In this document: positions 2,916-15,476 of the stretch, piece after piece
Layout of the letters: every line of letters starts with the position of its first letter
Numbering within the stretch: position 1 is the first letter of the stretch
DNA from: Patescibacteria group bacterium
GTDB taxonomy: Bacteria > Patescibacteriota > Minisyncoccia > JAHCSD01
Assembly (NCBI GenBank): GCA_018609185.1
Contig: JAHCSD010000006.1
Location: forward strand, 1 to 15,666
Length of the DNA stretch: 15,666 bases
Direction: 5' to 3'
Position numbers and translations under genes: made by a program
The notes under the pieces: model-generated
Told to the model about the DNA's origin: nothing
The model's input: the letters and a program-made list of their open reading frames with translations, nothing else
Databases searched by the model: none

Positions 2916-2973
2916 AATTCAAGTTAGTTGTTCTATTCGGTCGATCGACCGAATAGAACAACTAACTTGAATT
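2916..2973. repeat. Perfect 58-bp palindrome centred on CGATCG
   Basis: Bases 2916-2944 are the exact reverse complement of 2945-2973, with no spacer. The centre is GGTCGATCGACC and the ends are AATTCAAGTT/AACTTGAATT. There is no T-tract on either side, so it is not a standard terminator. It lies 69 bp upstream of the -35 box of the toxin-antitoxin promoter. Two other perfect palindromes in this window (14730-14781, 15427-15476) also have CGATCG at the dyad. Confidence 0.95.
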
Positions 2974-3080: not shown

Positions 3081-3281
3081 ATGGTAAAAGTAATTCAACA
3101 AAAAAATGTGATACGAGTTGGCAAGGAGCCCGTGGTTATTCTTTCGCTTAGAGAGTGGAGAAAAGTTGAAAAATCACTAGAAGACCTGGAGGAGTCTTTG
3201 CGTTTTAATGTTGCATATAAAGAGACTCGAGGTAAAAAGATGACAAGTCTTGAGTCGCTGAAGAAAAAATATAAGCTGTAA
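3081..3281 (+). CDS. Antitoxin of a RelE/ParE-type module (PHD/YefM-like)
   Basis: This is a 66-residue protein. The N-terminal part (KVIQQKNVIRVGKEPVVILSLREWRKVE, given here by position 3-30) has the strand-strand-helix pattern of PHD/RelB-type DNA-binding antitoxins, including the typical PVVILSLREW phrase. The C-terminus (ESLKKKYKL) is the flexible basic tail that normally wraps the toxin. Its TAA stop overlaps the toxin ATG by one base (TAATG), so the two are translationally coupled, which is the usual arrangement. Autoregulation through the promoter just upstream is expected from the family; the 58-bp palindrome further upstream is a possible additional operator. Identification rests largely on the partner gene and on this pattern. 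Confidence 0.75.
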   Translation: MVKVIQQKNVIRVGKEPVVILSLREWRKVEKSLEDLEESLRFNVAYKETRGKKMTSLESLKKKYKL

Positions 3282-3565
3282 TGTACCGTGTTTTCATCAC
3301 ATCACACGCAGGGCGGGAATTTAAAAAGCTATCTGCAAAACTCAAACAGGAGCTTTACAATGAATTTAAAAAATTAGAGACCGACCCATTTTCGCATCCG
3401 CAGACAAAAAGACTAGAAAGAACTAGACGTGGTTGGCGCCTCCGCCTTGGCAGATGGCGCATTTTATTTGCATTATTTCGAAAAGAAAAGCGAATTGAGA
3501 TTGTAGATATTTTTTTCAAAAAAGGAAAAGAGGATTATATCAAAAGAAGAAAGTTAATGCATTAG
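3281..3565 (+). CDS. RelE/ParE-family toxin
   Basis: This 94-residue protein has the classic order of the RelE/ParE fold. An N-terminal strand (YRVFITSHAGREFKKL) leads into two helices (KLKQELYNEFKKLETDP), then GWRLRLGRWRILFAL as the beta-sheet core with the Arg-rich active surface. It ends with IEIVDIFFKKGKEDYIKR. Members cleave mRNA on the ribosome (RelE) or poison gyrase (ParE); the sequence alone does not separate the two. The length is normal for the family and there is no frameshift, so the toxin looks intact. No Shine-Dalgarno site is seen; expression probably depends on re-initiation after the overlapping antitoxin. Confidence 0.85.
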   Translation: MYRVFITSHAGREFKKLSAKLKQELYNEFKKLETDPFSHPQTKRLERTRRGWRLRLGRWRILFALFRKEKRIEIVDIFFKKGKEDYIKRRKLMH

Positions 3566-11601: not shown

Positions 11602-11760
11602 CTATGGAAGTTCTTTCCAAGTTTTTCCTCTGATTTTTTCTTGGAAGAATTTTTCTTGTTTACAAACATTGGAGGATTGTATTACTGCAAGCATCACAGC
11701 GCAGGCCGACAGAAACAATACAGTACCAATACCTGTATAAAAAAGAATTTCCCCAATCAA
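11602..11760 (-). CDS. Possible 52-residue single-TM protein
   Basis: TTG start at 11760, stop TAG at 11604-11602. The frame lies 19 bp after the aldehyde dehydrogenase stop, with AAAGGA in front of the start as a moderate ribosome site. The product would begin IGEILFYTGIGTVLFLSACA, a convincing membrane helix (about residues 4-27), followed by SSNVCKQEKFFQEKIRGKTW and a short polar tail. The frame ends right at a bidirectional terminator, as the last gene of an operon would. Against it: a TTG start and short length. I do not recognise the protein. Confidence 0.45.
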   Translation of the reverse strand: MIGEILFYTGIGTVLFLSACAVMLAVIQSSNVCKQEKFFQEKIRGKTWKELP

Positions 11761-11779
11761 TTTTTCACATCCTTTCTTT

Positions 11780-13555
11780 TTAGAATTCTACGTACCGTCC
11801 TTTTTGCTTCCGGCAGAAAATCTTTATCGTGGCTTCGGCTTCGCCGACTCCCATGTTGCCGGATGGGCCGATACCCGATCCACCGAATTCTTCCCACTCC
11901 ATGGCGCTGTCAGTACCGTCGTTGAATTTAAGCATTCCGCCCAGTACTCGTTTTGCCTGCTCGATTTTTGAAGAATCCCTCGTATAGATGGAAGTTGCAA
12001 GGCTGTGCGGATTTTCGGTGAGACAGAAGTCAATAAACCGCTCGAAATTCATCTTCATCGTGATAAGCACGGGGAGAAAAAGTTCAGTGGTTGCGAGTTT
12101 GAACGTTTTATCGCCTTTGTCGTCCCAGTCGATGGTTATTTCTGTTTCTGGTGTTACGTTTTCGATAATAAGTGGCCGGCCGGTTTCGGTATTATCCATG
12201 TATTCCTGATAGGCTTGGAATTCTTCTCGGTTTCTCTCGCGTGCCTTGTCGAACACACTATGCATTACGCATCCATTGTTACCGGCCTCCATCGCAATCC
12301 GGTCTATATTGGAGGCTTTATGAACCATCAATGGCCCAATCGTTTTGGAGTCATCCGTCTTTCGTGGGTCACCTAGGTTCCACTTGCTCATTTCTTTTTT
12401 AATGAGGGGGACAAGACGACTGAGAGTTTTTTGCGAACCAGCAATCCCATGAAGCGTCGTGCACTTATGTGAAGAGAGTGAGAGTTTTGCAGACGCTAGG
12501 CGTTCTGCGCATTCCTGGAGTTTTTCGTCAGACAGTCCGGCGTCAACCCATATCCAGTTGCACCCACCTCCTTCAAAATAAAGTTTGTCGGGGTAGTCGA
12601 GTTTCGACTGGATCTGTTTTGCAGTTTGTTCGCTACCCGTGAGTGAAACACGCGCGACCCGCGGATCAAGAGCCAGTCGCTCGATCTTGGAACTGAACCC
12701 TTCGACTTTCTGGATCTGTCTAGGGTCGGCGCCGGCCGCAAGCAGCATTCTCATAAGCACGGTGTTCGTAATTCCCGCAAAAGGGTGTCCTTTAAAGATA
12801 ATCGGAACTCCTGCGAGATACGCTCCTACAAGTTGGATAACCGGAATGCCGTAGATGAAGTTCATGGGTGTGAGGAGGGTGGAAACTCCGATCGGGAGGA
12901 ATTCATTCCGCCAGTAGTGGTGTCCATAGACCATCTGGGGCGATATCTCGCCTTTCATTACGGTTTCTGCAGCACCTACCATGTGTGCGGCTGCACGCTT
13001 TGCTTCATAGAAGTCTTTTTTCGCCTCAAGAAGGGTTTTTGGAATCTGATGGCGAATTTCCCGTAAACAGTCTTCCGAGAAGTGGTTGAGGATCCGCACG
13101 AAATTGTCTATCACCCATTTACGGTAGCTGAGCGTCTCTTTGGCCCATTCCAGAGAGGTCCAGAAGTGATATGCCGCGTCAACCGCGGCCTTTGCCTCTT
13201 TCTCTCCAGAATCGGGAAGCTTGACAAGCGGGACGCGTCGGTCGAAGTGTGCGTTAAGCGTTACAGTCTTCCGATTTCCTTCCCAGCGGCCGTTTATGAA
13301 GTTTGGGGCGAACGTAGGTTCGCCGTTCGGGTCTTCGTTGAGATTTCGGCCGTAGTTTCGGTAGTAGAAGATATAGTCATGCATTGCTTCTATCTCTTCT
13401 TCCGAAATATTGTCCGTGGATAAACTCCAGGAGGCACGTCTTTCCGGGTAGCAATCGCCTATTTTATCCACAGTAGCTAGTCGGAACGCTTGATCGATTG
13501 CGCGCGTCAGTCTGGGGTTTTTATCCTTCATTTGTTCAAGGATTATACTTTTCAT
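11780..13555 (-). CDS. Aldehyde dehydrogenase superfamily enzyme with N-terminal extension
   Basis: The family oxidises aldehydes to acids or acyl-CoA with NAD(P)+. All core residues are visible: the oxyanion Asn in LTPMNFIYGIP (N232), the cofactor lysine in IIFKGHP (K255), SLTGS (304-308), the general base in YFEGGGCN (E328), the nucleophile in SSHKCTT (C365) and ELFLPV (491-496). The catalytic core starts at about residue 84 (PNFINGRW). The first 83 residues form an extra helical region, making 591 residues against about 480-550 in most relatives. The sequence is diverged (EGGG in place of ELGG), so the substrate is uncertain; 1-pyrroline-5-carboxylate or PaaN-like dehydrogenases are possible relatives. 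The ATG overlaps the preceding gene's stop (ATGA), and GGGGGGA precedes it. It is the main enzyme of the minus-strand operon. Confidence 0.88.
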   Translation of the reverse strand: MKSIILEQMKDKNPRLTRAIDQAFRLATVDKIGDCYPERRASWSLSTDNISEEEIEAMHDYIFYYRNYGRNLNEDPNGEPTFAPNFINGRWEGNRKTVTLNAHFDRRVPLVKLPDSGEKEAKAAVDAAYHFWTSLEWAKETLSYRKWVIDNFVRILNHFSEDCLREIRHQIPKTLLEAKKDFYEAKRAAAHMVGAAETVMKGEISPQMVYGHHYWRNEFLPIGVSTLLTPMNFIYGIPVIQLVGAYLAGVPIIFKGHPFAGITNTVLMRMLLAAGADPRQIQKVEGFSSKIERLALDPRVARVSLTGSEQTAKQIQSKLDYPDKLYFEGGGCNWIWVDAGLSDEKLQECAERLASAKLSLSSHKCTTLHGIAGSQKTLSRLVPLIKKEMSKWNLGDPRKTDDSKTIGPLMVHKASNIDRIAMEAGNNGCVMHSVFDKARERNREEFQAYQEYMDNTETGRPLIIENVTPETEITIDWDDKGDKTFKLATTELFLPVLITMKMNFERFIDFCLTENPHSLATSIYTRDSSKIEQAKRVLGGMLKFNDGTDSAMEWEEFGGSGIGPSGNMGVGEAEATIKIFCRKQKGRYVEF

Positions 13556-13824
13556 TCTTTATCCCCCCAGAGAGGATCCCAATCGACTTCGTCATGAGAG
13601 GAGAGCTCTTCATCGCGAAGCTCTTCAAGGCTAAGGTTGGGCTCTACGCCGTCTTTGACGCGGTCCATTTCATCCATGAGAATTTGTTGGAGTTTCCACT
13701 CCATTTGTTTTCGGAGCTTCTTATTGTAGATGCCTTGTTCTCCTGTTTGGCCAACTGTGGCAAGTTTCACAACTCTTTTTGCAACACGTTTCGCGAACAG
13801 CTTTTCGTCTTTTATTACAATCAT
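13552..13824 (-). CDS. Unknown small protein 4 of the operon (90 aa)
   Basis: I do not recognise the family. A basic amphipathic helix, EKLFAKRVAKRVVKLATVG (7-25), is followed by a second charged helix with KKLRKQMEWKLQQILMDEMD (34-53). The tail is strongly acidic and Trp-containing (SSHDEVDWDPLWGDKE). There are no membrane segments or cysteines. AGGAG sits 9 nt before the ATG, the gene starts 3 bp after the preceding stop, and its TGA overlaps the aldehyde dehydrogenase ATG (ATGA). The tight coupling suggests it works with that enzyme, perhaps as a partner or assembly subunit (inference). Confidence 0.75.
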   Translation of the reverse strand: MIVIKDEKLFAKRVAKRVVKLATVGQTGEQGIYNKKLRKQMEWKLQQILMDEMDRVKDGVEPNLSLEELRDEELSSHDEVDWDPLWGDKE

Positions 13825-13827
13825 GTA

Positions 13828-14043
13828 TTATACTCCTATTCCTGTTTCTTCTCCGTTTGCAAGTTCCCGCTCCGCATCGTCAAAGCAATTAAGCTTTTCT
13901 TCTATAATACGTGAAAGAAGATCCTCTGCTTTTTTCTCTTCTTCCGGGGTGTATGACCCTCTGGGAAAGTTTGTGTGTTCTTTTGTTTTCGTGATAATAG
14001 ATGATGCAACTGATCGCGCCTTCTGCTCGTTATTCAGGAACAT
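13828..14043 (-). CDS. Unknown small protein 3 of the operon (71 aa)
   Basis: I do not recognise the family. Start ATG 14043 is fixed by AAAGGAG 7 nt upstream; the open frame extends further but would overlap the previous gene. Two helices are predicted by eye: NEQKARSVASSIITKTKE and EEKKAEDLLSRIIEEKLN, followed by an acidic end (DDAERELANGEE). The second helix resembles one in small protein 1 (KKAEQIVEMLFEEI against KKAEDLLSRIIEEK). It is soluble and mostly charged. The gap to protein 2 is 16 bp and to protein 4 is 3 bp. Confidence 0.75.
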   Translation of the reverse strand: MFLNNEQKARSVASSIITKTKEHTNFPRGSYTPEEEKKAEDLLSRIIEEKLNCFDDAERELANGEETGIGV

Positions 14044-14059
14044 AAAGAATCTCCTTTCC

Positions 14060-14353
14060 TTATCCAATATAGGGAAGGCCTGGTTGCTGGGGAGGAACGG
14101 ACTTGCCACCCTTATCGTTTGGAGACCGGTTAATCTCATTAATGATAATTTTATAGATGGCCTTGCGCGTTTTTCTCCTTCTTCTTTTACTTATTCGTCG
14201 TCTGTCCGGATCTGCGTCCATAAAAGCTTTTGTGAGGCGACTCGCAAATTGTTCTTTTGTTTCTTTCTTTTCTCCTTCTTGCGGCGGCTCTTGAGAGACG
14301 GGGAACCCACCTCCCATAAATGCGGATATTATCTTTGTTTTTTTGTCAGTCAT
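14060..14353 (-). CDS. Unknown small protein 2 of the operon (97 aa, basic)
   Basis: I do not recognise the family. The order is a Gly/Pro-rich N-terminal part (FMGGGFPVSQEPPQEGEKKE), a helix KEQFASRLTKAFMDADPD, a strongly basic run RRRISKRRRRKTRK, a hydrophobic helix AIYKIIINEINR, and a Pro/Gly tail ending QQPGLPYIG. The basic run could bind nucleic acid or an acidic partner such as the tail of small protein 4 (inference). The ATG overlaps the stop of protein 1 by four bases (ATGA). The stop is followed at once by the Shine-Dalgarno site of protein 3. Confidence 0.72.
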   Translation of the reverse strand: MTDKKTKIISAFMGGGFPVSQEPPQEGEKKETKEQFASRLTKAFMDADPDRRRISKRRRRKTRKAIYKIIINEINRSPNDKGGKSVPPQQPGLPYIG

Positions 14354-14607
14354 TTGCCCTCTCCCTCTTGAGGAAGGGGGGTGTTAAGTATATCCAGCAC
14401 CCTTTTCCTGAAATATTCTCCTAGACTTTTTAGATTTTCGGGGAGCATGGAGATTTCAATGTTTAGATTTTGAGTTGGAGCGGTACCAAGGGTTCTCGTG
14501 TAGCCAAAAGTTTGCTTCTCTAAAATTTCTTCAAACAGCATTTCAACAATTTGTTCTGCCTTTTTTTCGTTAAAGCTGGGCGGATTTGCCTCATGAACGT
14601 CTATCAT
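14350..14607 (-). CDS. Unknown small protein 1 of the operon (85 aa)
   Basis: I do not recognise the family. It has a helix NEKKAEQIVEMLFEEILEKQ (13-32), a short strand region TQNLNIEISMLPENL, a second helix LGEYFRKRVLDILN and a polar tail PLPQEGEGK. It is the first gene of the minus-strand operon. A good Shine-Dalgarno site (AAGGAGA, 14621-14615) lies 7 nt before the ATG. A promoter lies about 63 nt upstream, leaving a real 5' leader. Its first helix resembles the second helix of small protein 3. Confidence 0.72.
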   Translation of the reverse strand: MIDVHEANPPSFNEKKAEQIVEMLFEEILEKQTFGYTRTLGTAPTQNLNIEISMLPENLKSLGEYFRKRVLDILNTPLPQEGEGK

Positions 14608-14669
14608 GTTTTCGTCTCCTTCTGAACTTGTTTGGACATTTTATTTTTCAAGGTTCAAACTGTCTTAGA

Positions 14670-14699
14670 ATAGTACAACAGGCGGAATAGATAAGTCAA
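14670..14699 (-). promoter_or_regulatory. Promoter of the small-protein/aldehyde dehydrogenase operon
   Basis: Minus-strand -35 TTGACT (14699-14694), then TACTAT (14675-14670) after 18 nt, or TGTACT after 16 nt. Unlike several other units here, about 55 nt of leader and a Shine-Dalgarno site precede the ATG. The palindrome 14730-14781 ends 30 bp upstream of the -35. Confidence 0.5.
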
Positions 14700-14729
14700 C
14701 GGCTTTTGTTTTTTTCTAGTTTTTTATCG

Positions 14730-14781
14730 TATTAAGGTGTGCTAATATCTGACGATCGTCAGATATTAGCACACCTTAATA
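14730..14781. repeat. Perfect 52-bp palindrome centred on GACGATCGTC
   Basis: Exact dyad with no spacer, centre between 14755 and 14756. Its inner 24 bp (14744-14767) match the inner 24 bp of the palindrome at 15427-15476 except for one symmetric pair of positions (AATATCT against AATATGT in each half). The outer arms are unrelated but still perfectly self-complementary. It has no T-tract after it in either direction. It lies 63 bp after the regulator gene and 30 bp before the next -35 box, so it could be an operator. Confidence 0.95.
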
Positions 14782-14844
14782 ATAATGATAGAATCAAGTA
14801 ACCCGGGGCTAGACTGGTAGTGGAGGCTAAAAGAGCATACCTTT

Positions 14845-15405
14845 TTAGTGAATTTTGAAATATTTTTTTAAATCTGAATCACGGTTCATTTTCTCTATCG
14901 TAATAAACCGGATGTCTCCTTCAAATGTTTTATTGCAGAGCCTTAAGAATTCATAAAATTCTTTTTCTATATCATAGGGATATACCCATACGCTTTTTTG
15001 TAGTTCCTTAAGGCCGAAACTTTTGAGATACGACCTCAAAAAATTTCTCTCTTTTCTGTCGTTTTCTGGTATATCGAATATGACTATGCGCCATTTACGA
15101 TCCCACTGTTTGTTATTTTGTTTCTGGTTAATTTTTTCCCGAAGAGCGATCAGTTTTCCTTTGTTGGTAATCTTGATTATTTTATGTTTTCCATGTATGC
15201 TTTTTTCGATATAGCCGCCTCTTTGAAGGCTATTTACGGACCAGTATATTTTTTTAGGAGTTGTCCCACGACGAAATTTTCCGTGAGGGTCAGACATAAT
15301 ATCTACAAGTTCTATCATCGCAAAATCGAGCCCCTTTATTCCTTTCTTTGTAATTTTTACCATCGAGCTCAGTATATGTTTGGATTGTTTTGATAGCGCT
15401 GCCAT
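14845..15405 (-). CDS. PaaX-like regulator with Cas2-fold C-terminal domain
   Basis: This is a 186-residue protein from ATG 15405. The N-terminal part (about 1-90) looks like a winged helix, with TPKKIYWSVNSLQRGGYIEK as recognition helix and wing. The C-terminal part is Cas2-like ferredoxin fold: WRIVIFDIPENDRKERNFLR (105-124) and FGLKELQKSVWVYPYD (130-145). These match the first strand with its Asp (D111) and the SVW/SVF strand of Cas2 and PaaX. There is no cas1 or CRISPR array nearby, so a transcription regulator is likelier than a CRISPR role. It is shorter than classical PaaX (about 300). A frame open to a TTG at 15468 would read through the palindrome and promoter; I reject it because -10 and -35 boxes lie between. 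The -35 overlaps the palindrome, suggesting self-regulation. Confidence 0.82.
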   Translation of the reverse strand: MAALSKQSKHILSSMVKITKKGIKGLDFAMIELVDIMSDPHGKFRRGTTPKKIYWSVNSLQRGGYIEKSIHGKHKIIKITNKGKLIALREKINQKQNNKQWDRKWRIVIFDIPENDRKERNFLRSYLKSFGLKELQKSVWVYPYDIEKEFYEFLRLCNKTFEGDIRFITIEKMNRDSDLKKYFKIH

Positions 15406-15412
15406 AATTAAA

Positions 15413-15441
15413 AGTGTAGATGAAGAAATCTTAGTTGTCAA
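15413..15441 (-). promoter_or_regulatory. Promoter of the PaaX-like gene, overlapping the palindrome
   Basis: Minus-strand -35 TTGACA (15441-15436, full consensus) lies inside the palindrome. A 17-nt spacer leads to TACACT (15418-15413), then 7 nt to the ATG at 15405, so the transcript should be leaderless. Anything bound at the palindrome would cover the -35. Confidence 0.65.
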
Positions 15442-15476
15442 TATGTGACGATCGTCACATATTGACAACTAAGATT
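15427..15476. repeat. Perfect 50-bp palindrome / probable operator
   Basis: Exact dyad with no spacer, centre between 15451 and 15452 (GTGACGATCGTCAC). The ends are AATCTTAG/CTAAGATT. The mirror copy of TTGACA on the plus strand has no -10 at a proper distance, so only the minus-strand promoter looks functional. Confidence 0.95.

Follow-up and report, generated by a model that had tools for sequence, protein, structure and literature searches.

In bacteria, short palindromic repeats associated with a gene of their own are described for the REP/RAYT system (REPtron). There, two REPs in inverted orientation enclose the RAYT gene, RAYT genes and REPs co-evolve, and the RAYTs have been proposed to mobilise the REPs (PMC2817692). 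The TnpA-REP protein is described as processing single-stranded REPs (PMC8266576). A long dyad site is also described for the regulator PaaX, which in E. coli binds TGATTC(N27)GAATCA (PMC9493321). Here, we present the analysis of a 15,666-base stretch of DNA from a Patescibacteria group bacterium (the window), which is one whole contig (C9) of a genome of 799 kb in 153 contigs, 85% complete. The window contains a gene for a 186-residue protein with a winged helix and a Cas2 fold, enclosed by two perfect palindromes. Comparison with 60 loci of the same class and 29 further loci of the phylum suggests that palindrome, gene and palindrome (747 bp, 14730..15476, minus strand) very probably form one mobile unit.

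Loci of this family resemble a REPtron in that a pair of palindromes encloses one gene, the palindrome sequence is particular to that gene, solo copies are found elsewhere, mainly extragenic, and a slot that holds such a unit in genome G034 is occupied by a Y1 (RAYT-like) gene in a sister species (G005). However, RAYT is a HUH/Y1 transposase whereas the protein described here combines a winged helix with a Cas2 fold and gives no match to the HUH/Y1 transposase domain PF01797 in a Pfam scan. The two REPs of a RAYT are described as inverted (PMC2817692), whereas among 67 pairs of flanking sites compared here 29 of the 34 orientable pairs are direct and 5 inverted, the other 33 being too symmetrical to tell. 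The copy number is also low, with 0-3 copies beyond the flanking pair per gene for the four genes counted genome-wide. In common with PaaX, the protein has the Cas2-like middle domain PF20803 behind a winged helix, and a long dyad DNA site, but it has 186 residues as compared to the 305 of the E. coli PaaX chain and no C-terminal PaaX domain could be found in it by the Pfam scan; moreover, its gene is not near a recognisable aromatic-acid operon, has sites on both sides and is probably mobile. With Cas2 it shares the fold and a signature with invariant Asp112 and Ser139, but a winged helix is fused to it and its own genome has no Cas1. Hairpins near both ends in the same orientation are a feature of IS200/IS605 elements as well, but the present unit lacks a Y1 transposase. 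A palindromic insertion in frame in a metabolic gene (sufS; one case) is reminiscent of the Rickettsia palindromic elements and of miniature inverted-repeat transposable elements (MITEs), the differences being a length of 36 bp as compared to the about 150 bp given for the Rickettsia elements (PMC10969869) and the presence of an associated protein gene.

In the titles and abstract openings of the open-access literature, with most subscription papers and preprints outside, nothing was found that joins PaaX- or Cas2-like proteins, palindromes and the candidate phyla radiation or Patescibacteria, and no palindromic mobile unit with a Cas2-fold protein was found there. To our knowledge, no mobile element built on a Cas2-fold winged-helix protein is known. 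The definition of RAYT does not cover the unit, nor does that of PaaX, and for these reasons we set it apart as a new kind.

The Cas2-fold protein and its paired palindromes

The gene is located at 14845..15405 on the minus strand (start codon ATG at 15405 and stop codon TAA checked). In the Pfam scan its product matches PaaX_M (PF20803, E 8e-20, 71.1 bits, cut-off 24) and CRISPR_Cas2 (PF09827, 24.9 bits, cut-off 23.8); it also passes the NCBIfam Cas2 model TIGR01573 (30.4 bits, cut-off 24.5) and is matched by the Cas2 models of PADLOC, but fails the PaaX equivalog TIGR02277 (31.2, cut-off 264.55). The winged helix comes first and the Cas2-like domain follows. A search of the PDB by sequence gave nothing significant. 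The AlphaFold2 model (pLDDT 86) was compared with known structures by Foldseek, in which E. coli PaaX (8a39, E 9.5e-4) is the sole match below E 0.001; the next matches are other regulators and a number of Cas2 chains. The family carries the Cas2 signature FDIPE..R..R / Q-x-S-V-W, in which none of the 39 aligned proteins departs from Asp112 and Ser139; Asp112 presumably corresponds to the position that is catalytic in Cas2. Histidine is absent from the invariant and nearly invariant columns of the family alignment (A2).

The upstream palindrome (site 1, 15427..15476) is 50 bp long, perfect and loop-free, with the core TGACGATCGTCA at 15446-15457, and holds the -35-like TTGACA of the regulator (15441-15436), which is accompanied by a -10 element TACACT. 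The downstream palindrome (site 2, 14730..14781) is 52 bp long, also perfect and loop-free, and has the same core; of the 20 half-positions of its arms, 7 are unlike those of site 1, and each of these changes is compensated. A promoter-like sequence of the next operon, TTGACT-18-TACTAT, begins at 14699, 30 bases past site 2. The first-pass annotation of this DNA had described the -35 box within a perfect palindrome, the second palindrome before the next promoter and the location of all the named genes on the minus strand, and we confirm each of these. Promoter-pattern matches number 12, as compared to 5.6 ± 2.0 in shuffled sequences, so that single promoters are weak evidence. Because the upstream site overlaps the gene's own promoter-like sequence, autorepression through this site is plausible and, as far as can be judged from the sequence, likely. 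The core occurs in 5 copies in the genome, and the reversed control pattern in none; three of the copies are on other contigs and had escaped the first-pass annotation. Rfam gave no match in 35 kb including the palindromes.

Of the class genomes, 56 of 93 have members of this Cas2-fold/PaaX_M family, as do 64 of 192 phylum genomes; a single genome of the class sample gives up to 13 matches, and the genome of the window has two members. In viral contigs, none of 111 pattern matches is related to the protein. Two sets of loci were compared. Set A comprises 61 class loci, namely the first 60 of more than 150 family matches listed and the window, and set B comprises 29 phylum loci other than the window, among the 30 matches listed by a phylum-wide search; the latter are mostly from other classes, L149 and L165 being from same-class genomes. 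For each locus, the 200 bp upstream of the family gene were compared with the 160 bp downstream and a shared segment was counted at a score of at least 14. Such a segment is present in 43 of 59 usable class loci and 23 of 28 usable further loci, as compared to 3/177 and 0/84 when flanks of different loci are paired, and 7/149 when the same test is applied to other genes of 130-260 residues in the class loci. A dyad score of at least 12 on at least one side is seen in 32 of 61 class loci and 15 of 29 further loci, and in 2 of 624 and 0 of 210 random windows, which are mostly coding and make this control a generous one.

The sites are about 30-55 bp in length and have a central 6-8 bp such as ACGATCGT, ACGRYCGT, GCTATAGC, GCGATCGC or GCCATGGC. 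The centres CGATCG, CGRYCG, CTATAG and CCATGG recur across genes while the arms are peculiar to each gene, and the two family genes in the genome of the window have different sites, with 5 copies each (0 for the reversed-pattern controls). The downstream site is also present where the next gene is convergent (L078, L082). In genome G056, all six of the family genes found in 17 stretches (340 of 837 kb; a seventh match is outside this count) had a site within 15-62 bp. The sequence evidence thus supports the assignment of the flanking palindromes to the Cas2-fold gene which they enclose.

The arms follow a rule of their own. Six solo copies in the genome of the window were located by the 12-bp core alone, and yet in each of the two site families 40 of 42 outer-arm positions (7-20 from the centre) are paired, though the arms are not alike from copy to copy; when the flanking copies, first recognised as palindromes, are included, the pairing is 68 of 70 in each family. 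The central core is conserved within a site family and the differences between copies are mostly compensated, so that, for example, the site at L054:3662 and the solo copy L137 differ at 10 half-positions of which 10 are compensated and 0 are not. Arms which change but stay self-complementary point to either recognition of the folded arm or copying of one arm from the other.

Two further observations concern the arrangement of such units. In L085 (G082:C8, 5857-7569), the order is palindrome, two small called open reading frames, palindrome, Cas2-fold gene, palindrome, with three copies of one palindrome, which is a possible cargo cassette. The contigs of L059 and L078 end at the final base of a palindrome, suggesting that such units may break metagenome assemblies; the contig of the window runs 190 bp past its palindrome.

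Empty sites and solo palindromes

Between genomes, pairs of family proteins rarely have a neighbouring gene in common (1 of 18 pairs at 60-80% identity and 2 of 94 at 50-80%). For other genes in the same loci the values are 19 of 21 and 45 of 57, although the value of 19/21 is inflated, because the loci were chosen around the Cas2-fold gene, which weakens this comparison as evidence of movement. Above 80% identity neighbours are common to 2 of 2 pairs, which indicates recent relatives still in place.

Empty sites were found at the level of genes in eight comparisons at five loci, where the two flanking genes are neighbours, -4 to 199 bp apart, and enclose no family gene; in one of these (L054/L088) one flank match is only 30% identical. 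The window itself is one of the eight, since its glyS and M16 peptidase gene are 3 bp apart at a place where L081 has the unit. Three more comparisons have an open reading frame from outside the family between the flanking genes. Within one genus an empty site can be seen in the DNA, where 920 bp of G052 correspond to 56 bp in G073 between flanks of about 80% identity. Divergent family members (38-46% identical) are located between the same two flanking genes in three genomes (L063, L072, L082), as an old insertion or a hot spot.

A slot with a Cas2-fold unit in G034 holds, in its genus mate G005, a 222-residue open frame with the Y1 transposase domain PF01797. This slot (C35:9484-10297, L178) has GCAAAGGTTWAACCTTTGC-type repeats, and the Y1 frame is accompanied by GCAAAGGTT-type short repeats of 19 bp which were recognised by eye in the sequence; a palindrome scan of the slot, which covers even centres only, returned none. 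The Y1 domain and the repeats lead us to read this gene as RAYT-like, and by that reading one slot is taken by a RAYT-like unit in G005 and by a Cas2-fold unit in G034.

The sites also occur away from the gene. For each of the two family genes in the genome of the window, two core copies flank the gene and three are elsewhere. Of the four copies in genome G082, three form a cluster around the gene while the fourth is distant, G049 has the flanking two only, and in G056 (340 kb read) two solo copies match two of its genes. Nine solo copies were traced (L114, L115, L116, L134, L137, L138, L182, L125 and L128; genes called by longest open reading frame). Eight of them are located 0-136 bp behind, or across, a stop codon, one of which (L116) is also 102 bp before the next gene. 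The ninth lies inside a coding sequence, as codons 343-354 of sufS in G056 (36 bp, in frame), where two solved SufS proteins, aligned residue by residue, are without 15 residues. The sufS copy has one mismatch close to the centre in common with the site behind its cognate gene, and departs from that site by two changes, each of which is found on both arms. Not counted among the nine are two palindromes of G056 that fit no placed gene's site, one at 441036 (86 bp behind a gene) and one at 298165. A location of the sites at promoters of target genes, as expected of an ordinary transcription-factor regulon, is not seen among the nine copies.

Proposed mechanism and competing explanations

On balance, we consider the probable explanation of these observations to be a palindromic mobile unit that is REP/RAYT-like but whose protein, a winged helix with a Cas2 fold, is unrelated to RAYT. 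The regulator and its two palindromes would form one small mobile element, and the Cas2-fold winged-helix product, presumably a dimer, would recognise its own dyad site. That the protein recognises the palindromes is very likely. Recognised as a hairpin or cruciform, the palindrome would move either along with the protein gene that two copies enclose or through the action of that protein in trans, the substrate being single-stranded hairpins, and the dispersed solo palindromes would be non-autonomous copies or scars. Cutting might be performed by the protein itself, with its Cas2-like fold and invariant Asp112, or by a host enzyme. The weakest step is the assignment of mobiliser to the Cas2-fold protein itself, to which we give slightly less than an even chance, as a host enzyme could do the strand transfer.

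A broader proposal, which we put forward tentatively and hold to be possible though not probable, is that of a new class of DNA mobility. Here the Cas2-fold winged-helix protein alone, without Cas1 or a known transposase, would be a recombinase for its own palindrome, which it would recognise and move in hairpin form, generating perfect palindromes with ever-changing arms which are scattered behind genes and into coding sequence across Patescibacteria. If true, this suggests that the Cas2 fold has, apart from CRISPR adaptation, a role in mobile elements. If the units are mobile as proposed, genes scoring as Cas2 or PaaX-like in the ultra-small genomes of these mostly uncultured bacteria would be genes of an unrecognised mobile element whose annotation would have to be corrected, and the origin of many long perfect palindromes in such genomes would be explained. 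The Cas2-fold protein would also join the short list of proteins tied to DNA mobility, with a bearing on how Cas2 entered the CRISPR adaptation machinery.

Several points weigh against a mobile unit driven by its own protein. No transposition has been observed, the unit being known here from sequence comparison, and the 186-residue protein has no known transposase motif. Its Foldseek matches are PaaX, then regulators and Cas2, and its VIA-align rows are mostly winged-helix regulators with middling Z, for which reason VIA-align was not used to decide function. The solo copies are few (3 per gene in the genome of the window, 2 in G082 with one close by, 0 in G049), whereas REPs are described as usually exceeding 100 per genome (PMC2817692). 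Plain operator binding explains part of the dyad, because the footprint described for PaaX is of similar length (PMC9493321). No clear flank pair is seen at a score of at least 14 in 16 of 59 class loci, and in 24 loci with good dyads on both sides 56 upstream-downstream differences are compensated and 40 uncompensated, so that the self-complementarity rule is strong in the examined families but not absolute. In the G052/G073 pair, the unit (L065) has weak sites (dyad 4.0 and 6.5), the 920 bp also hold an open reading frame of 95 residues, and the sequences have diverged too far at the junctions for an exact boundary or a target-site duplication to be defined. Finally, the gene is in the same slot in several genomes (L063/L072/L082, L060/L062, L083/L142), which also fits vertical inheritance.

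A rival reading is that of a mobile but passive regulator cassette, in which the protein would be only an autorepressor on two sites, the unit would spread by uptake and recombination or through a transposase whose gene lies elsewhere and which recognises the palindromes, and the solo sites would be a small regulon or MITE-like copies. If the protein is such a passive repressor, the unit would fall under a known kind. We regard this as rather unlikely, since eight of the nine traced solo sites lie behind or over stop codons with one inside a coding sequence, and most genes have their own site on both sides (43/59, 23/28), which is needless for a passive passenger. The same position behind stop codons, and a terminator-like score of site 1 on the minus strand, would be expected of bidirectional terminators or hairpins at mRNA 3' ends that flank the gene by chance; this is nevertheless very improbable, as the sequence common to both flanks is gene-specific, sites are also present upstream of the gene, one copy is inserted in the sufS coding sequence and the central core is conserved within a site family. 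Least probable of all is a CRISPR remnant with a stray Cas2 beside repeat-like palindromes. Passing of the NCBIfam Cas2 cut-off (30.4 vs 24.5) and the matching PADLOC Cas2 models would agree with it, but Cas1 is absent from the genome of the window (0 in an 85% complete genome) and was found in 6 of 93 relatives, with a score under the curated cut-off in one of them, the Cas1-bearing G009, G014 and G025 are among the 56 carriers of the Cas2-fold gene, and the two sites flank a gene, not spacers.

The first-pass annotation had seen here a PaaX-type regulator that controls, through two operators, both itself and the next operon, consisting of four small genes and an aldehyde dehydrogenase (ALDH). 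Its first half fares well, as the palindromes belong to the regulator and autorepression is plausible, but control of the ALDH operon is unsupported and we find the complete proposal distinctly improbable. The promoter-like sequence 30 bases past site 2 and the tight gene spacing speak for it, and the nearest relatives of regulator and ALDH (P0002, 61%, and P0121, 67%, respectively) both give a longest contig of 52,242 bases and may be neighbours in one relative, which is the single observation from which the proposal could be revived. However, site 2 has the position of the downstream site in other loci (pairs in 43/59 and 23/28), where this site is present irrespective of the next gene and also before convergent genes. 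The ALDH is present in 1 of 285 class genomes at E 1e-40, small-protein homologues are found in 0 of 16 ALDH loci, the solo sites are not clearly at promoters, and the PaaX equivalog score of the protein is 31 against a cut-off of 265. We therefore retain the REP/RAYT-like mobile unit as the preferred explanation of the palindromes and the gene between them.

The aldehyde dehydrogenase operon and other features

Past site 2 and on the minus strand lie open reading frames of 85 (14350..14607), 97 (14060..14353), 71 (13828..14043) and 90 residues (13552..13824), followed by the gene for the 591-residue ALDH (11780..13555). The 97-residue frame overlaps the 85-residue one by ATGA, gaps of 16 bp and 3 bp precede the 71- and 90-residue frames, respectively, and the ALDH gene overlaps the 90-residue frame by ATGA; this spacing, including the four-base overlap into the ALDH gene, is as noted earlier. 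The 85-residue frame is probably outside the unit, and given that the place of site 2 is the usual one of a downstream site, irrespective of the genes beyond it, the whole operon is regarded as a neighbour and is probably a bystander. The 85-, 97- and 71-residue frames have no significant family match. The small frames gave nothing above cut-off in Pfam or NCBIfam (weak matches at E 0.06-0.18) and nothing in PHROGs or PADLOC (PADLOC run on four of five small frames), and a search of 5.8 billion proteins with the 90-residue frame, the other small frames being outside that search, returned only itself.

The ALDH is the only PF00171 match in its own genome and, at E 1e-40, is absent from the 284 other class genomes; no match was found in viral contigs. 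Its relatives in 16 named loci (47-52% identical) are from other phyla, including Myxococcales, Sericytochromatia, Deltaproteobacteria and others, and its nearest relative (P0121) is 67% identical, the next being 57%. Homologues of the small proteins were found by tblastn in none of these 16 loci, some of which are truncated, and the four tblastn matches obtained (E 0.06-0.5) are in no ALDH locus. The suggestion that the small proteins assist the enzyme is therefore not supported. The ALDH had been considered as the centre of the story and was dropped, as nothing ties it to the palindromes. In L041 and L049, ALDH relatives are located directly before 2Fe-2S/FAD sarcosine-oxidase-like genes, an arrangement which suggests that they act there in amino-acid catabolism or oxidation.

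A third perfect palindrome of 58 bp (2916..2973) with the centre GGTCGATCGACC, which the first-pass annotation had not noticed, lies just upstream of two overlapping small open reading frames (3081-3565) which are toxin-antitoxin-like and which we take to be RelE-like. Its centre resembles those of the flanking sites, but its membership in the site family is uncertain because a search of the genome with its 20-bp centre, allowing up to 3 mismatches, gave no further copy. Two nested imperfect inverted repeats at 1692-1896 (arms of 27 and 29 bp) form an intergenic hairpin-like element of about 205 bp that resembles a MITE. A palindrome family with the centre ACATTCTGCAGAATGT is present, away from the Cas2-fold family, in two genomes (L091, 531-566; L130, G056 323237-323591).

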